Part shown: piece by piece, positions 12,223 to 41,192 of the stretch | How the letters are laid out: every line of letters starts with the position of its first letter | How positions within the stretch are numbered: position 1 is the first letter of the stretch | The notes under the pieces: model-generated | What the model was told of the DNA's origin: nothing | The model's input: the letters and a program-made list of their open reading frames with translations, nothing else | Databases searched by the model: none | DNA from: Acidimicrobiaceae bacterium | GTDB taxonomy: Bacteria; Actinomycetota; Acidimicrobiia; Acidimicrobiales; RAAP-2 | Assembly: GCA_003133545.1 (NCBI GenBank) | Contig: PKYA01000202.1 | Location: forward strand, 1-64,000 | Direction of reading: 5' to 3' | Length of the DNA stretch: 64,000 nucleotides | Translations under genes and position numbers: made by a program

Positions 12223-13374
12223 TCAGCGTGCCAGCAGCTCCTCGTAGACGGCATGGGTCTCGCGCGCCGTGCGTTCCCAGCCGAACCCTGCGGCCCTCTG
12301 GCGACCGGCCGACGCCAGGGAGCGCTGCCGGTCGGCGTCGGTGGCCAGCTCGCCGATCGCCTCGGTCCAGCGGCCGACGTCGCGGGCCGGGACCAAGCAC
12401 GCCGCTTCCCCTCCGACCTCGCGCAACGCGGGGATGTCCGAGCAGATCACCGGCGTGCCCTGGACCATGGCTTCCAAGACGGGCAGCCCGAACCCCTCGT
12501 GGAGGCTTGGGAAGGCGAACAGCGACGCGCCGGCGTACAGGGCGCGGAGGTCCTGCTCGTCGACTGGGCCGAGGACGCGTAGCCGGTCGCCGAGCACCGC
12601 ACGATCCCGGTCCGAAATGAGGTCCCGGTGGAGCCACCCCAGCGGGCCGACCAACGCCAGCCGGTGCGGGACGGCATCCGTCCTGACCAGCTCGGCGAAC
12701 GCCTGGACGAGCGTGCCGACGTTCTTGCGGGGTTCGAGGCTGCCCACCCACAAGACGTACGGCGACCCAGCGAGGTCGTGGCGCCCGAGGGCGTCGTCGA
12801 CCTCCGACGGCAGGGCCGTGCGATGGTCGACGCCTGACAGCACGACCCGTAACTGCTCGCGGCGCACGGGGGTATGGGCCACTATCTCGTCGGCGGCGGC
12901 GTGCGTAACCGTGAGCACGACGTCGGCGCGCTCGGCCACCCTCGTGAGCGACCGCTCGTGGAACCGTAGACCTCGTCGGGGGTAGGACTCCGGGTAGAGG
13001 GCGAATGCGGCGTCGTGTACCGTGACCACCAGGTGCCCACGCACCGGCGGTGCGACAGGGGCAGGCGAGTGGACCACGTCCGCACGGCGCAGCGAGGTGG
13101 CGAACAGTTCCGGCCGGGGTGCGCCCAGCACGTTCCACGCGTCGTAGAGCGCGGGACGGGGCAGCGGCAGCCGTACCGTCGGAGCAAGGCCGCGGTCGAG
13201 CTCGAAACGCGCCAGGCCAGCCTCGAGGGCACGGCGGCCATGCCATGCTACAAACGGCACCACCACGTCGGCGGGGAACTCGGCAGCCAGCGCTGCCGTG
13301 AGCCGCGCCGTGTAGCGACCCGTACCGCCCGGTACCCGATAGAAGAGCTGTTCGACATTCATGGCGACACGCAC
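12223..13374 (-). CDS. GT4 family glycosyltransferase
   Basis: VRVAMNVEQLFYRVPGGTGRYTARL N-terminus, LWVGSLEPRKNVGTLVQAF, FPSLHEGFGLPVLEAM; start GTG 13374 (alternative ATG 13362). Confidence 0.9.
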   Translation of the reverse strand: MRVAMNVEQLFYRVPGGTGRYTARLTAALAAEFPADVVVPFVAWHGRRALEAGLARFELDRGLAPTVRLPLPRPALYDAWNVLGAPRPELFATSLRRADVVHSPAPVAPPVRGHLVVTVHDAAFALYPESYPRRGLRFHERSLTRVAERADVVLTVTHAAADEIVAHTPVRREQLRVVLSGVDHRTALPSEVDDALGRHDLAGSPYVLWVGSLEPRKNVGTLVQAFAELVRTDAVPHRLALVGPLGWLHRDLISDRDRAVLGDRLRVLGPVDEQDLRALYAGASLFAFPSLHEGFGLPVLEAMVQGTPVICSDIPALREVGGEAACLVPARDVGRWTEAIGELATDADRQRSLASAGRQRAAGFGWERTARETHAVYEELLAR

Positions 13375-14488
13375 GAAGAGAATCCTCTCAATCCAACCGG
13401 TGGCAGAGCGCGGCGGCTCGGACCACGCGCTGCTCCGCACGTTCCGGTACCTCACCGCGCACGGCTGGGAGTGCCACGTCGTATTCCCCGAGCCGTCGCC
13501 GATGACCGCCGAGTTCGTCGCTGCCGCCGTGACCGTCCATGTCGTCCCCATGCGGCGGTTGACGCGGAGCGGCGGCGTGGGCTACTTCGCCGGCTACGCC
13601 GCGTGCTGGCCGGTGTCGGTGCTGCGCTTGGCCCAGCTGTGCCGGAAAGTACAGCCCGGTGTCATCCACAGTAACTCACTGCACTCGTGGTACGGATGGG
13701 CCGTCGCCTGGCTGCTGCGAACGCCGCACGTCTGGCATGCGCGCGAGATCGTAGTGCAGTCCAGGTGGGCGCTCTCGGTGGAAAGGCAGCTCACCCGGCG
13801 GTTCGCCCGGCGGGTGGTCGCAGTCTCCGAGCCCGTGGCGGCACAGCTCCCTGGTGCCAACGTGGTGGTGGTGCACGACGCCATCGGCGCCGAGGATGGA
13901 TTGTCGCCCGGACGGGCCGGCCGCTTCCGCGCGCGGGTAGGGATCGACGACGACGTCGTGCTCGTCGCCGGCGCCGGGCGTCTCGACACCTGGAAGGGGT
14001 TCGACGTCCTGCTCGCGGCCTTCCCCGAGATCCGTCGGGAACGACCGGATGTAGAGCTGGTCATCGCCGGTGGGGCCGTCCGAGGCAAGGAGCAGTACGC
14101 GGAGCACCTGGCCCGCGTGGCGGAGCAGACGACCGGCGTCCACTGGCTCGGGCCCCGCACCGACATGCCCGACCTGCTGGCCGACGTCGACCTCTTCGTC
14201 CTCCCTTCGACCGACCCCGAGCCGTTCGCATCGGTCGCGGTCGAGGCGCTCGCCTCGGGCGTGCCACTGGTCGCGACCGACCATGGGGGCTCGCCCGAGA
14301 TGCTGCGCGAGTGCCCCGAGGGCACCGGCCGGCTCTTCGCGCCACGTGACGCCACGGCTCTGGCCGAGGCCGTCACCGCCATGGCTCCCGCCGCGCCGTC
14401 GAGCATCGCACGGCGCCGAGCCCGCACGGCGCAGCTGATCGGGGACCAGAGCCAACTCGCCGCCATTTTCGACGACGTGCTCGACTAG
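13361..14488 (+). CDS. GT4 family glycosyltransferase
   Basis: KRILSIQPVAERGGSDHALLRT, LVAGAGRLDTWKGFDVLLAAF, LPSTDPEPFASVAVEALASGVPLVATDHGG. Confidence 0.9.
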   Translation: MATRTKRILSIQPVAERGGSDHALLRTFRYLTAHGWECHVVFPEPSPMTAEFVAAAVTVHVVPMRRLTRSGGVGYFAGYAACWPVSVLRLAQLCRKVQPGVIHSNSLHSWYGWAVAWLLRTPHVWHAREIVVQSRWALSVERQLTRRFARRVVAVSEPVAAQLPGANVVVVHDAIGAEDGLSPGRAGRFRARVGIDDDVVLVAGAGRLDTWKGFDVLLAAFPEIRRERPDVELVIAGGAVRGKEQYAEHLARVAEQTTGVHWLGPRTDMPDLLADVDLFVLPSTDPEPFASVAVEALASGVPLVATDHGGSPEMLRECPEGTGRLFAPRDATALAEAVTAMAPAAPSSIARRRARTAQLIGDQSQLAAIFDDVLD

Positions 14489-23059: not shown

Positions 23060-23551
23060 CTAACTGGCCAGGAGAGAGCGCACCCCCGTATCGAGCGAGA
23101 ATCGGCCGGTCCCCATGATGGCGATCACGAGCGCCAGGGCGGCCAGAGCAATGTTGAGCTCGTAGCCCGAGCCGTTGGCGTTCCCGATGATCCCGTTGCT
23201 CCACGTCACAGTGATCATGGCCATGACCATGTCACCGACGAGCCCTGCCGCAGCCAACCGGCCCAGCACGCCAATCCCGACGGCGGCCCCACCGAAACAC
23301 TCGATGATGCCGCCCAACACCGCGAAGAACGGGCCGGGCCTGAGATGGGCGACGTGGGCGAAGTAGACGGCTTGCGGGTGAATGCCAGACCCGCCGAAGG
23401 CGCCGAACAGGGTAGCGGCGCCGTGGTAGACGAAGATCCACGCCAGGCCGATGCGCACCGCCAGGAGGGCGATATCGCGCGACGATCGGGCCTCCCGGAT
23501 GGCCCGGAGCCGATCGCTGGCGTGACGGACGCGCAGGACGAGCGACGTCAT
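23060..23551 (-). CDS. DoxX family membrane protein
   Basis: LAVRIGLAWIFVYHGAATLFGAFGG...; C-terminal part of ORF 23060..24472, ATG 23551 overlaps upstream stop (ATGA). Confidence 0.85.
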   Translation of the reverse strand: MTSLVLRVRHASDRLRAIREARSSRDIALLAVRIGLAWIFVYHGAATLFGAFGGSGIHPQAVYFAHVAHLRPGPFFAVLGGIIECFGGAAVGIGVLGRLAAAGLVGDMVMAMITVTWSNGIIGNANGSGYELNIALAALALVIAIMGTGRFSLDTGVRSLLAS

Positions 23552-24561
23552 GACGAGACGTCCGTCGCCGCGTGCAGGCGGAACGGCTGAGCCAACTGCG
23601 CCAGCACGACCTGGGGAACCGCTCGCCGCGCCGCGCCCTGCTCGAGCGGGACGGGTCGACCCAGAATCCCGGTGGGACACGGCGCCGCGTTGGTGGGGAA
23701 GATCGCTCGGTGCGCCAACTGGTCCCAACAGACCAGGACGAAGCCGAAATTGACCGAGCCGCGGGAGTCGATCGGCACGGCGATGTGGTGGAGGCGGTGG
23801 TAGGCGGGGCTCACCACGATGCGCCCCAGCGGCCCGAACGCCCAGCGGAGGTTGGCGTGGGGCAGGGTCACCAGGCACGCATACACGATGAGGGCGGCGC
23901 CGGGGACGGTCCCGCCCGCACCGAGGACGAGGACCGGCAGCAGTGCAGGGAGATAGGACGCGTGCACGAGGGGGTGGGTGCGAAAGGTGGTGAGCACACT
24001 CATGTCCTCCTGGGAGTGGTGGAGGGCATGGAGCCGCCACAGCGCCAGGGAGCGATGGTTGGCCACGTGCGCAGCCCAGTTCATGGCATCGATCCCGACG
24101 AGGATGGTGGCGATCACTACCAGCTGCGGCACCATCGACAGGTGGCTGAGGAGCAGGAAGCGGGCGTGCGCCTCGACCTCCACGCCCAGCCCGGTCTGCA
24201 CCAGGGTGAGCAGCGGCAGGACCATCACGGCGAAGATGCCGAAATAGGCGGCGTCGACCAGGTGGGCCCGAGCCACGAGCGGCCGTGGCACGGCGGGCCA
24301 CAGGCGCTCGGCAACGAGCACGACCGACACGAAGACGATAAGGACCGGACCGGCCGAATGGTCCCGCGCCGCCGCCAGCGCGCTCGAGAGGTCCCCGGCG
24401 GCCACGAGGGCCTGCAGGCCGACGTAGCCGAGCCACACTGCCGCCGCTCCCAGCCCCAGTACGGCCAACCACGCCCTCATCCGGGTTGCCGGGCGCAAAG
24501 TGGGCTCCGACGACGAGGACGGTCCGGGCGGACGGGTGATTCCCAGCTCGCTGATGGTCAT
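23548..24561 (-). CDS. Sterol desaturase/fatty acid hydroxylase family protein
   Basis: His motifs HVANHRSLALWRLHALHHS and YHRLHH; N-terminal TM helices; start ATG 24561. Confidence 0.88.
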   Translation of the reverse strand: MTISELGITRPPGPSSSSEPTLRPATRMRAWLAVLGLGAAAVWLGYVGLQALVAAGDLSSALAAARDHSAGPVLIVFVSVVLVAERLWPAVPRPLVARAHLVDAAYFGIFAVMVLPLLTLVQTGLGVEVEAHARFLLLSHLSMVPQLVVIATILVGIDAMNWAAHVANHRSLALWRLHALHHSQEDMSVLTTFRTHPLVHASYLPALLPVLVLGAGGTVPGAALIVYACLVTLPHANLRWAFGPLGRIVVSPAYHRLHHIAVPIDSRGSVNFGFVLVCWDQLAHRAIFPTNAAPCPTGILGRPVPLEQGAARRAVPQVVLAQLAQPFRLHAATDVSS

Positions 24562-24928
24562 GGGCTCGTGTCTCCCCAGATAGCGGGGCCTCCGGAGTTG
24601 TGGTGCTGCAGTGTCCACACGTCCATCACGCCCTCTCATCGTGTCAGGTTCTGGCCGGCATTTACCTAACGTAGAGGTACTACGGACGGAGGGCCGGTTC
24701 GGATCACCGGGATCCTGGAAATGGGTGCCCAAGCCAGAGCTCAGTCCAGGTGCCGCATGCCGCGGGCCGATCAATTGGAGTTCGGTGTTCTCGACCGATT
24801 CCGGCGCCAGGAGACGACATCGGCCACAACGAATCCCGATGCGGCGATCACGGCCAAGATGATTCCATGCGTGAAAGCTGAAGACCGATGGTAGAGCTTG
24901 GCGACGTGACCGGCTGGGACGCCGCGCC

Positions 24929-25923: not shown

Positions 25924-25946
25924 CCCGCCTCCGGACCGGAGGCGGG
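25924..25946 (-). terminator. Perfect 10-bp stem, 3-nt loop hairpin downstream of the tRNA
   Basis: CCCGCCTCCG-GAC-CGGAGGCGGG; 42 nt past the tRNA 3' end on the minus strand; no strong U-tract. Confidence 0.5.
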
Positions 25947-25988: not shown

Positions 25989-26062
25989 TGGGGACGGAGG
26001 GATTCGAACCCTCACTGGAGGCGGTTTAAGCGCCCTGCCTCTGCCAATTGGGCTACGCCCCC
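25989..26062 (-). tRNA. tRNA with UAA anticodon (Leu by anticodon) but short 5-nt variable loop
   Basis: GGGGGCG TA GCC CAATTGGCAGA GGC A GGGCG CTTAAAC CGCCT CCAGT GAGGG TTCGAAT CCCTC CGTCCCC A; all four stems pair; CCA not encoded. Confidence 0.85.
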
Positions 26063-26873: not shown

Positions 26874-28445
26874 TCAGTCCGGCCGGCCGGCGAGAAGCGG
26901 GCGGTAGCGCTCCCAGACGGAGAGCTCCGAATCCCTCGGACGGTCGACCTTGCCGGTCTGGGGACCGAAGATCATGGTCGACCTCGTGCGCGGATCCCAC
27001 GTGGGCCACTCGCCCAACCCGGCGTGCGCGGGGTCCCCTGTGTGGGCGAAGGCGGTCCAGGCTCGTTGCATCCGTTGGGAGAGCTCGTCCGCCGCGTCCC
27101 CGGCGCCGGTGAAGAATTGCACGGCCGGGACGTGCACGACGCCGAAGACGAAGGGCAATTCCAGCGCGTGGCTTGCGCCCAACACCCCGCCGAAGGCGGG
27201 TGACTCCCACTCGAAGAGGTAGACGTAGGGACGACGGCCGTGCGCGCCGTGCGCCGCGGCGAGCTGGAGGCTGGGCCAACGGAAGACGCCGTCGGATCCG
27301 ATCGCCACCAGGAGGGCGTGGGGATCCACCGTCTCGGCGCGGCCCAGCCGGATGCGGCGATATGCCGCAATGAGCTGCTCGCTCGGCACGTCGGGTGCGG
27401 CATGGGCGGCCCACCGGATCACTCCGGGCTCGTCGAGCGCCGACATCTCGGGTCGACCGAGCCCGAAGAGCGTGAGCTCGTCACGGTTGGTGCCGATGAG
27501 CAGGTCCACATCTGCGGCCGCTCCCCGTTCGACCGCCTGCAGCGGGTGCGTCGGCAGGAAGCGGCCGTCGACGACAGGGAGGTACGCCAAGGGGATGAGG
27601 CCGGCATCGGGTCGGTCCCTGGCGATGACCTCGGTGGCCGCCACCAGCTCGACGAAAGGCACCGAGAGTAGGGACTCACGGCTGCAGCTCGCCAATCCCA
27701 GCGCCGACGCCAGCCGCCCGGCCACGCGTTCCGCCTCGAATATGGAGTGCACATGGACCCCGCCACTTTGCACAATCGCCCTCCGGAAGAGGCCGGCACC
27801 GGCCGGCGTGCCCATCAGGGTCGCCACACTGAAGCCCCCGGCAGATTCACCGAAGACGGTGACGTTGTGCGCGTCCCCTCCGAACTGTGCGATGTGGTCA
27901 CGCACCCAGCGCAAGGCAGCCACTTGATCATGCAGGCCCCAGTTGCCAATGAAGCCATCAGGGTCACCCAGTGCGCGGGTGCCGAGGAATCCCAGGGCAC
28001 CCAGGCGGTAGTTGATGGTGACGACCACGAGGTCACCGTTGCGCGCGAAGTGGTCGCCTCGGTAGAGGAATACCGAACCGGCGCCCGAGGTGAACCCTCC
28101 GCCGTGGATCCACACCATCACGGGCCGGCCCGATCCGGGTCGGTCGGTCGGATCCTCGGGGAGCTCGGGCGTCCAGATGTTGAGCGTGAGGCAGTCCTCG
28201 CTCTGCATTGCACTGGCAGAGGGATCGGCCGGACTGGTGACGCCGGGTTGTGCCACCGCCTGGGGGGCGATGGGCCCGAATGACGATGCCTCGTGCACGC
28301 CTTCCCATGGCAAGGGAGGTTGCGGCGGTCGCCATCTGAGTTCCCCTGCGGGCGACCGCGCGTACGGGATGCCCGAAAAGGTCCAGAGGTCGCCCCGCCG
28401 CACTCCTCGGACACGCCCGCCGGCGACGGTGACGATCCCTTGCAT
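26874..28445 (-). CDS. Type B carboxylesterase/lipase
   Basis: GIPYARSPAGELRWRPPQP, SEDCLTLNIWTP, VFGESAGGFSVATLMG nucleophile elbow. Confidence 0.95.
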   Translation of the reverse strand: MQGIVTVAGGRVRGVRRGDLWTFSGIPYARSPAGELRWRPPQPPLPWEGVHEASSFGPIAPQAVAQPGVTSPADPSASAMQSEDCLTLNIWTPELPEDPTDRPGSGRPVMVWIHGGGFTSGAGSVFLYRGDHFARNGDLVVVTINYRLGALGFLGTRALGDPDGFIGNWGLHDQVAALRWVRDHIAQFGGDAHNVTVFGESAGGFSVATLMGTPAGAGLFRRAIVQSGGVHVHSIFEAERVAGRLASALGLASCSRESLLSVPFVELVAATEVIARDRPDAGLIPLAYLPVVDGRFLPTHPLQAVERGAAADVDLLIGTNRDELTLFGLGRPEMSALDEPGVIRWAAHAAPDVPSEQLIAAYRRIRLGRAETVDPHALLVAIGSDGVFRWPSLQLAAAHGAHGRRPYVYLFEWESPAFGGVLGASHALELPFVFGVVHVPAVQFFTGAGDAADELSQRMQRAWTAFAHTGDPAHAGLGEWPTWDPRTRSTMIFGPQTGKVDRPRDSELSVWERYRPLLAGRPD

Positions 28446-28451
28446 GGGGGC

Positions 28452-28457
28452 ACCATA
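28452..28457 (-). promoter_or_regulatory. -10 TATGGT, 6 nt upstream of ATG 28445 (leaderless candidate)
   Basis: Reverse complement reads TATGGT gccccc ATG. Confidence 0.6.
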
Positions 28458-28519
28458 TGAAGCGTTCTCCTTCGGGTCAACCACAACCCAATGTGTTCAC
28501 GCCGCGATTGGTCCGCATC

Positions 28520-33013: not shown

Positions 33014-33634
33014 TCACGGTGACAGCCAGTCCCCGGAAAGCTCGAGTTCGCGCAACGCCCACTCCTCCGAAGTGATGCCATAGCGCACGTGGTCCTCCCA
33101 CACGCCGTCGATCTCGAGGAATCGCTCGGCGATTCCCTCCTGCCGGATGCCGAGCTTCTCCACGACGCGGCGGCTGGCCGTGTTCCTCGGGATGATCGAT
33201 ATCTCGACTCGGTGCAGCGAGATCGCCTCGAAGGCGAATTGGAGTGTCACCACCACCGCCTCGGGCACGAAGCCCCGTCCGGCCAAGGCCTCGTCGATCC
33301 AGTAGCCGATGAAGGCGCTCTGGAACGGCCCCCTCTGAATTGATGAGAGCGTGACCTCACCGGCAAAGCGCTCGCCCACGAAGATGCCGAATCCGTACCC
33401 GCTCCCGAGATGCCGCTCGCGCTCGCGAATGCCGCAGCGCGCGGCGAAGCTTGACCGGTCCTCGGAGGGCACTGGCGCACCCTTAGGGCGCGGTTCCCAG
33501 CGCAGCAACCACGCACCGCACCGCGTCCGCACTTCGTGCCACTCGTCGAAATCGTTCTCGGTCAGTGGCCGTAACATGACCCGCCGCCCGTGCAGTTGCA
33601 GTGGAGGATTGCGTACTGACCTTGCCGCACTCAT
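33014..33634 (-). CDS. GNAT family N-acetyltransferase (RimJ-like)
   Basis: VMLRPLTENDFDEW, GYWIDEALAGRGFVPEAV, RNTASRRVVEKLGIRQEG; ATGA overlap with upstream gene. Confidence 0.9.
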   Translation of the reverse strand: MSAARSVRNPPLQLHGRRVMLRPLTENDFDEWHEVRTRCGAWLLRWEPRPKGAPVPSEDRSSFAARCGIRERERHLGSGYGFGIFVGERFAGEVTLSSIQRGPFQSAFIGYWIDEALAGRGFVPEAVVVTLQFAFEAISLHRVEISIIPRNTASRRVVEKLGIRQEGIAERFLEIDGVWEDHVRYGITSEEWALRELELSGDWLSP

Positions 33635-34731
33635 CGGTCGAGCACCTCCTTCAGCGCACCGAGGAGCGTCACGACATTTCGTGGACGCGCCGTGTGCCCC
33701 ATACAACCGATCCGCCATACTTTGCCCGCCAACTTGCCCGCCCCGGCACCAATTTCAATGCCGTAACGGGTCAGGAGCAGCCGGCGGCAGTCCGCCTCGC
33801 TCATCCCCGAAGGCAACGAGTCGGGGACCTCAACCGTCGTGAGCTGGGGTAGGCGGTGTGCCGCGTCGGCGAACAGGGTGAGGCCCAACGCCTCGAGGCC
33901 GTCCTGCAGGTGCCGGCCACACTCCGCGTGGCGGATCCGCGCCGCCTCGATCCCTTCGTCGAGAACGGCGCCCAGCCCGGCGTGGAGCGCTGCGATCATG
34001 GTCACCGGAGCAGTGTGGTGGTACACCCGGGTGCCTTCGGATCCCTCCTGGACATAGCGCGACAAAAGATTGAGGTCCAGGTACCAGCTCAGCGGACGCG
34101 CCACCATCCGCTCGCGGGCGCGCAGCGAGACGGTCAGCGGCGCCAAGCCGGGCGGGACACCCAGGCACTTCTGCGTGCCGCTATAGGCGATGTCCACCTT
34201 CCAATCGTCAACCGCCACCTCGATGCCACCAAGCGACGTCACCATGTCCACCAAGAGGAGCGCCTCCCCCTTGCCCGCCCCGAGCGGCGCGACATCGTTG
34301 CGAACGCCGGTGGAGGTTTCGGCGTGCACCACGGCAATGATGGACGGAGAGGGATGTGCGGAGAGGAGGGCCTCGGGATCGATCGACATCCCCCACGGTG
34401 CATCCACCCTGATCACCTGTGCCCCCACGCGGTCCGCCACCTCGCACATCCGCTCCCCGAACACTCCGTTGACCCCGATGACGACGGGATCGCCGGCCCG
34501 CACGAAGTTCACGAACGATGCTTCCATGCCTGCGGAGCCGGTTCCACTCACCGGCAGGGTCAGCGCGTTGGCCGTGGCGAAGACCTGCCGCAGTCGCTGG
34601 TTGGTGTCATCGAGCACGGCGAGGAAGTCGGGATCAAGGTGCCCCAGCACCGGCCCGGCCAACGCCTCGGCCACCTCGGGATAGGGATTGCAAGGACCCG
34701 GGCCCATGAGAAGGCGGTCGGATATCGGCAT
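33631..34731 (-). CDS. Class V aminotransferase (alanine-glyoxylate/serine-pyruvate type)
   Basis: [51 protein letters not shown]-Lys. Confidence 0.93.
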   Translation of the reverse strand: MPISDRLLMGPGPCNPYPEVAEALAGPVLGHLDPDFLAVLDDTNQRLRQVFATANALTLPVSGTGSAGMEASFVNFVRAGDPVVIGVNGVFGERMCEVADRVGAQVIRVDAPWGMSIDPEALLSAHPSPSIIAVVHAETSTGVRNDVAPLGAGKGEALLLVDMVTSLGGIEVAVDDWKVDIAYSGTQKCLGVPPGLAPLTVSLRARERMVARPLSWYLDLNLLSRYVQEGSEGTRVYHHTAPVTMIAALHAGLGAVLDEGIEAARIRHAECGRHLQDGLEALGLTLFADAAHRLPQLTTVEVPDSLPSGMSEADCRRLLLTRYGIEIGAGAGKLAGKVWRIGCMGHTARPRNVVTLLGALKEVLDR

Positions 34732-40122: not shown

Positions 40123-41192
40123 CAGCGTCCGTCCGGCCCCGCCCGGGTGAATGCCCTCCGTGCCGCTCGGTACGCCCGGCGGGCAACGGTGGCGAGCGGC
40201 TGTGGCCGGGCACCCGGGGGCGTGGTGCCGGCGCGCTGCGCACTCTCGGCCAGCCCTTGATTGAGCCGGGCGATGATCTGGTCCAAGCCGGCGACGTGGC
40301 CGTCCAGTGCACCAATGTGGCGGTGCAGGCTCGTCACCTGATCGATCAGAGAAGCGCGCTCTTGGACCAAGGCGGCGTTCTCCGCTGCCATTTGGTCGTG
40401 ACGCTGGGTTGCCTCGGCGACTTCCCGGCGCAGAAGGGTCTCGCGCACCTGCTCGTGGTGGACGTGATCAGCGAGCTCGTTGATCCGGTTGGTCAGATCG
40501 GCCACGACCTGTGCGCCATCGTCGCGTACCGACTTCATCACGAACTGGTAGGACTCCGCTTCGGGGTCCGTCAGGATCGCGTCGATGACCGGTTGGGGCA
40601 CGTCCGCGCGCTCCACGTCGAGCTCGGAGTGAAAGAGCGGCACAACTATCCGCCTCGTCTCCACCGGTAAGAGCCCGGCGTCACGGAGGAGCTCCCGCAC
40701 GCTCTCCAGGGTGAAGAAACGGAGGTGGGTCCGGTCCAGCAGCCCGACGTCCCGATAGCGGAACGATCCGGCCAACAGCGCGAGACGCACGTCGCCGTGC
40801 GCGATGTTGGGCAAGGAGGTCACGACGATGCCCGACGGCTTGAGCTTGTGCACCGCCGATCTCAGCGCCGAGAGTGGATCGCGCAGGTGTTCGAGCACGT
40901 CCCCGCAAAGCACCACATCGAATGACGCGTCTGCGACGTCGCCCCACACCTCGCCGCGATCGATGTCCCCCACAATGACGCGCTCCGCCCATTTCTCGGC
41001 CACGGCCGCCGCCTCGGCGTCGAGTTCGATACCCACGACGGAACAGCCTCGCTCGGCCATCGCCCTGGAGAGGTACCCGGTTGCGCAGCCCAATTCGAGG
41101 ACGGACTTGTTGTAACCGACCATGGACAGGAGGTACGCGTGCGTGTTGTTCTCGGCCTCCGGATCAACGGTCGTGTCGTAGACAAAAGCCAA
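40122..41192 (-). CDS. SAM-dependent methyltransferase with C-terminal coiled coil and basic tail
   Basis: VLELGCATGYLSRAMAERG, FDVVLCGDVLEHLRDP; C-terminal coil and ARRAYRAARRAFTRA tail; TTG start; TGATG junction to 37933 gene. Confidence 0.85.
   Translation of the reverse strand: MAFVYDTTVDPEAENNTHAYLLSMVGYNKSVLELGCATGYLSRAMAERGCSVVGIELDAEAAAVAEKWAERVIVGDIDRGEVWGDVADASFDVVLCGDVLEHLRDPLSALRSAVHKLKPSGIVVTSLPNIAHGDVRLALLAGSFRYRDVGLLDRTHLRFFTLESVRELLRDAGLLPVETRRIVVPLFHSELDVERADVPQPVIDAILTDPEAESYQFVMKSVRDDGAQVVADLTNRINELADHVHHEQVRETLLRREVAEATQRHDQMAAENAALVQERASLIDQVTSLHRHIGALDGHVAGLDQIIARLNQGLAESAQRAGTTPPGARPQPLATVARRAYRAARRAFTRAGPDGR

Follow-up and report, generated by a model that had tools for sequence, protein, structure and literature searches.

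A tRNA-Leu(UAA) gene without a long variable arm, very probably the resident UUA reader in an actinobacterial family

Introduction

In reviews, tRNA-Leu is generally credited with a long variable arm, and a class II tRNA is defined by a variable region of at least 10 nt (PMC7609411). The window studied here, a stretch of 64,000 nt from an actinobacterial contig, encodes a tRNA with the leucine anticodon UAA and a variable loop of 5 nt. This poses two questions: Which amino acid does such a tRNA carry, and is it a regular member of the host's tRNA set? A sequence-only reading of the locus had considered an unusual tRNA-Leu, a misacylated tRNA and a tRNA derived from a mobile element. The evidence assembled below argues for the first of these. 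Judged from sequence comparisons, the gene very probably specifies a resident, functional tRNA-Leu(UAA) that would be charged with leucine and read UUA, and that belongs to an arm-less lineage standing in for the class II form.

Results

ARAGORN called a single tRNA in the whole window, a minus-strand tRNA-Leu(taa). The Rfam model RF00005 matched the same place (25989-26062, minus) along its entire length (model positions 1-71 of 71) with 56 bits (E=2.2e-9). As the cut-off of this model is 29 bits, the locus belongs to the tRNA genes. The sequence, GGGGGCGTAGCCCAATTGGCAGAGGCAGGGCGCTTAAACCGCCTCCAGTGAGGGTTCGAATCCCTCCGTCCCCA, comprises 74 nt up to the discriminator, and the gene does not encode the CCA tail. 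The anticodon loop reads CTTAAAC (RNA: CUUAAAC). With the 5 nt CCAGU the variable region falls short of class II length. In all these points (tRNA, UAA anticodon, 74 nt, loop, 5-nt variable loop) the sequence-only reading was accurate. It erred in describing the D-arm as class-I-like. The stem of this arm is made up of the pairs 10-25, 11-24 and 12-23, position 13 is mismatched with 22 (C13.A22), and the arm contains A14, A15, G18, G19 and A20a. Three pairs, this mismatch and A20a make it leucine-type, in contrast to the 4-bp GCUC/GAGC D-arm of class I tRNAs. The D-arms of the genome's own class II tRNA-Leu species read ...AAnnGGCAGACGC... and are of the same bacterial leucine type. The coordinates are compiled in Table 1.

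Table 1. Features of the tRNA locus in the window
Feature	Position	Strand	Evidence
Gene for a tRNA-Leu(UAA) that lacks the long variable arm	25989..26062	-	ARAGORN; Rfam RF00005; family relatives 92-100% identical
Anticodon UAA, loop CUUAAAC	26026..26028	-	ARAGORN; constant in all family members read
Variable loop CCAGU, 5 nt, positions 44-48, replacing the long arm; U48 retained	26014..26018	-	Sequence; U48 in 92/93 relatives
Leucine-type D-arm GCCCAAUUGGCAGAGGC	26037..26053	-	Sequence; counts over 93 relatives; PMC9976931
Discriminator A73, main leucine determinant	25989..25989	-	Sequence; PMC9976931
Perfect GC-rich palindrome CCCGCCTCCGG-N-CCGGAGGCGGG	25924..25946	-	Read by eye; downstream, at a distance of about 43 nt from the tRNA
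Upstream gene of the carboxylesterase family, oriented like the tRNA	26874..28484	-	Pfam COesterase, E=7e-109

MFE folding of the bare sequence did not yield the full cloverleaf and was not used as evidence; an incomplete MFE cloverleaf is common among unmodified tRNAs. The fold was instead read from an alignment of 93 distinct short relatives, in which 98-99% of the acceptor, anticodon and T-stem cells are paired and each stem position is occupied by 2-6 different standard pair types. Stems that remain paired with several pair types, together with 92-100% identity within the family, exclude a chance origin of the tRNA. A scan for sigma-70 consensus promoters and T-run terminators found neither near the gene. 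The palindrome downstream of it was missed by the terminator scan because it has no T run; it may be a 3' end structure.

The identity elements of leucine tRNAs are known from other bacteria. Essential in E. coli tRNA-Leu are A73, the A15-U48 pair, G18G19 and A20a, whereas the long variable arm is not required and arm-truncated versions are active; for Aquifex LeuRS, U8:A14 matters (PMC9976931, a review of tRNA identity). The window tRNA carries every one of these determinants: A73, A15/U48, G18G19, A20a and U8:A14. Among 190 bacterial tRNAs sampled, the full set was present in 54/54 short tRNA-Leu, 24/25 class II tRNA-Leu and 0/111 other tRNAs; many of the loci were retrieved with D-arm patterns, which in part predetermines the D-arm share of the 54/54, and A73 and U48 were part of no retrieval pattern. 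Over the 93 distinct short tRNAs, positions 8, 14, 15 and A20a are invariant, U48 is found in 92 and A73 in 91. Their anticodons are UAA, CAA, UAG and, once, AAG, that is, leucine anticodons only.

A bacterial LeuRS was found above the cut-off in each of 30 genomes. In the host family, this enzyme is compact and lacks a domain before KMSKS. A LeuRS specialised for the short tRNA was considered and rejected: Two genomes with class II tRNA-Leu only (G050, G055) lack the domain, too, and two with short tRNAs (G042, G206) possess it. Since the compact type also occurs in class II-only families and the longer type also alongside short tRNAs, no special LeuRS seems to be needed. In many members of the family, the class I synthetase signature of LeuRS reads HQGH instead of HMGH (leuS loci L157-L186).

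The expectation that UUA is very rare in this genome proved right: In 43 genes of the window, selected by GC3, only five of the 1778 Leu codons are UUA. They are distributed one per gene, all on the minus strand, over genes for a glycosyltransferase (12226-13551), a protein of unknown function (13597-14466), a member of the fatty acid hydroxylase family (23551-24774), a GNAT acetyltransferase (33017-33718) and a methyltransferase (40125-41192). As UUA is too rare in the genome itself, its meaning was examined in relatives. In the family member G028, about 6% of the aligned Leu codons are UUA. When G028 was compared with a second member, G009, with UUA masked during the alignment, UUA faced Leu (UUA included) at 82% of 343 sites in 161 common genes. 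The corresponding values were 79% for UUG, 75% for CUU and about 10% for AUA or AUG. Against the outgroup G047, which has a class II UAA tRNA, UUA faced Leu in 54% of cases, compared with 60% for UUG, 54% for CUU and 58% for CUG; CUC lies within the same 54-60%. UUA and the other Leu codons align with leucine equally often, and on these alignments UUA is a leucine codon in family members. The short tRNA is the sole tRNA found whose anticodon can read it.

How widespread is the gene, and is it alone? A search with the 74-nt sequence found it in nearly all family members, with 92-100% identity and usually once. A census used a search pattern to which a UAA tRNA of either form, short or class II, conforms; 163/173 genomes of the family matched, as did 98/102 of the better ones. 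Among the matches listed, all were of the short form except about ten chance hits, and at three such places that were checked no tRNA-Leu was present. The window's own genome (84% complete) contains class II tRNA-Leu with the anticodons CAA, CAG, GAG and UAG, and the search for a second, class II tRNA-Leu(UAA) in it, a check that the sequence-only reading had proposed, found none. Given the 173 relatives, a class II copy hidden in the missing part is unlikely. In G028, where every class II candidate was read, the inventory consists of class II CAA, UAG, two CAG and GAG, with UAA as short form only. No class II tRNA-Leu(UAA) turned up in the other family genomes examined within the reach of the search patterns, which can miss divergent class II copies. 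A class II gene with an intron or a divergent D-arm was sought with an open pattern in 27 family genomes, and only CAA, CAG, GAG and UAG species and scattered chance hits were obtained. Two members that are 93-95% complete, G014 and G019, yielded neither form, which may be due to assembly gaps.

The carboxylesterase gene lies upstream of the tRNA in the same orientation in 12/30 family loci. Ten flanking proteins in the window were searched and proved to be of ordinary chromosomal type, with no phage or integrase gene among them. This conserved neighbour and the chromosomal surroundings indicate that a large part of the family has inherited the gene at this same locus. The sequence-only reading had named, as evidence that would speak against it, a tRNA that is the sole, conserved and normally charged tRNA-Leu(UAA) of the clade. 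Sole and conserved it largely is; its charging with leucine we infer.

Elsewhere in the order, the same scaffold carries the anticodons CAA and UAG. In G042 (one contig, 99%), class II UAA, GAG and CAG species are combined with short CAA and UAG species, so that each of the five Leu anticodons occurs once. G050 has all five in class II form and no short form. Counted as combinations of genome and anticodon, 15 genomes from outside the family contain 19 short and 38 class II forms, with zero overlap between the two sets. When the short anticodons were shuffled among UAA, CAA and UAG, a mean of 5.7 coincidences resulted, and none in 0.02% of trials (P=0.0002); the 15 genomes are related and do not represent 15 independent events. 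By this comparison of gene sets, short and normal isoacceptors replace one another anticodon by anticodon within the order.

The scaffold is not confined to this order. In a sample of the phylum, 77/398 genomes matched the short type, and in another family (f96) 13/14 did, with UAA in nearly all. It also occurs, mostly in tRNA arrays, in phages of Erwinia, Pseudomonas, Mycobacterium, Streptomyces and Sinorhizobium and in a cyanophage, and wherever these copies are annotated, they are annotated as tRNA-Leu. In addition, two actinobacterial plasmid records carry it, one of them next to an integrase: On plasmid 5 of Tsukamurella tyrosinosolvens (L144), the end of a short tRNA-Leu(CAA) adjoins a site-specific integrase gene, which suggests use of this tRNA as an attachment site. 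Three further loci deserve mention. The array of Erwinia phage vB_Eam-MM7 (L140) contains three short tRNA-Leu (CAA, AAG and UAA) in a stretch of the record without tRNA annotation. In G206, four apparent short 'GAG' copies were rejected, as they are repeats of about 70 bp of decayed tRNA halves; these four tandem tRNA-Leu 5' halves (G206:C1:4579453-4579760, L336) immediately precede an intact short tRNA-Leu(UAG). In G622 (C1:2666664 and 2744542; L338, L339), a partial 5'-half copy of short tRNA-Leu(UAA) is separated from the intact gene by 78 kb, and the pair resembles the two ends of an integrated element.

Discussion

The mechanism we propose starts from a lineage of leucine tRNAs that would have dispensed with the long arm and kept the leucine-type D-arm, the A15/U48 core pair and A73. 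By way of these three elements, LeuRS would charge the short tRNA, with no need for the arm, and the short tRNA would read UUA, a codon that no other tRNA of the genome could read. In the host family it would replace class II tRNA-Leu(UAA), and in neighbouring families the same scaffold would replace the CAA or the UAG isoacceptor. Its presumed function and its identity elements lead us to class the gene as tRNA-Leu, outside class II. We infer that the gene is expressed, that LeuRS charges its product, and that displacement rather than parallel loss accounts for its history.

Three other explanations were weighed. The class I look could mean that another synthetase charges the tRNA and that UUA is decoded as an amino acid other than leucine; the combination of class I shape and Leu anticodon is indeed abnormal for bacteria. 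This is highly improbable, since UUA aligns with leucine as often as the other Leu codons, all leucine determinants are kept while no other isotype sampled had the full set, and the anticodon varies among Leu anticodons only. The same findings leave the misacylated tRNA of the sequence-only reading without support, whereas its unusual tRNA-Leu fits the intact identity elements, the restriction of the scaffold to Leu anticodons and the alignment of UUA with leucine. An unexpressed remnant, for which the lack of promoter or terminator consensus nearby could be adduced (as far as a scan for sigma-70 and T-run signals goes), is the least credible option: In the stems 98-99% of the cells are paired and each position shows several pair types, the core is invariant, and genomes that use UUA have no other tRNA to read it.

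The gene could also be an accessory tRNA of a phage or mobile element beside an unseen normal class II tRNA-Leu(UAA). The scaffold is found in phage arrays of unrelated hosts and on plasmids, and Mycobacterium mucogenicum has a short tRNA-Leu(TAG) in a transferred tRNA cluster, with the normal isoacceptor elsewhere in its genome (PMC6582537). The window tRNA likewise combines the phage-type scaffold CCCAA-N-GGNAGAGG with a short V loop and a Leu anticodon. However, it does not qualify as a mobile accessory tRNA, which would lie in an array or mobile element with a normal isoacceptor present. Instead, it is family-wide, usually single and outside any array, its upstream gene is conserved, its ten flanking proteins include no phage or integrase protein, and class II UAA is absent from the family genomes searched. 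This makes an accessory role very unlikely. The earlier suggestion of a mobile-element origin is thus plausible for the distant past, in view of the phages, the plasmids and the mycobacterial cluster; it does not describe the host family, where the gene is resident and conserved genus after genus.

With a resident tRNA-Leu as the preferred reading, the question of its history follows. We lean slightly towards the view that arm-less tRNA-Leu is a separate old lineage, spread by phages at least in part, that took over the leucine isoacceptors of actinobacterial chromosomes anticodon after anticodon. This concerns UAA in the host family, with other families of the phylum as probable further cases, and CAA and UAG in a neighbouring family. 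Displacement of class II isoacceptors by a phage-type lineage is accordingly favoured by a narrow preference, and the alternatives, in which the arm was lost in parallel or the short form is of old vertical descent, are only somewhat less likely.

Comparison with known systems places the tRNA more precisely. Class II tRNA-Leu(UAA), e.g. Streptomyces bldA (PMC4932002) and the copies of neighbouring families, has in common with it the anticodon, the leucine-type D-arm, A15/U48, A20a and A73, and it, too, is the single reader of UUA. The window tRNA differs from it by 5 nt in place of the long variable arm and by C12-G23 and C13.A22 in place of the usual G12-C23 and G13.A22. The short tRNA-Leu species of phage arrays (Mycobacterium phage CELFI, Cyanophage P-RSM6, Erwinia phage vB_Eam-MM7) have the same scaffold, CCCAA-N-GGCAGAGG, a V loop that usually ends with AGU and exclusively the anticodons UAA, CAA, UAG and AAG; they are accessory and arranged in arrays, whereas the window tRNA is resident and the sole UAA tRNA. 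The tRNA-Leu(TAG) of M. mucogenicum also has a short variable loop and is located on an actinobacterial chromosome, but is accessory, with a normal class II UAG present (PMC6582537). Human mitochondrial tRNA-Leu(UUR) illustrates that LeuRS can charge an arm-less tRNA-Leu, chiefly via A73 and A14, albeit in an organelle and not from a bacterial genome; the truncated tRNA-Leu variants of E. coli, active without the long arm, are laboratory constructs, whereas the window tRNA is natural (PMC9976931). In the open-access papers searched, no description of a resident short tRNA-Leu was found; short tRNA-Leu is described there as accessory only.

Conclusions

In an entire bacterial family, a tRNA without the long arm appears to be the only UUA reader, and similar genes are widespread in the phylum. 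It provides a natural counterpart to the experiments that showed E. coli tRNA-Leu to work without the arm. Recognition by LeuRS and rejection by SerRS and TyrRS without the arm thereby become testable. Judging from the substitution anticodon by anticodon, core tRNAs may be replaceable by tRNAs of phage type. In annotation, leucine identity should not be doubted on account of a 5-nt variable loop. If the takeover of isoacceptors outlined above is true, the long variable arm would be dispensable for a resident, codon-essential bacterial tRNA-Leu.
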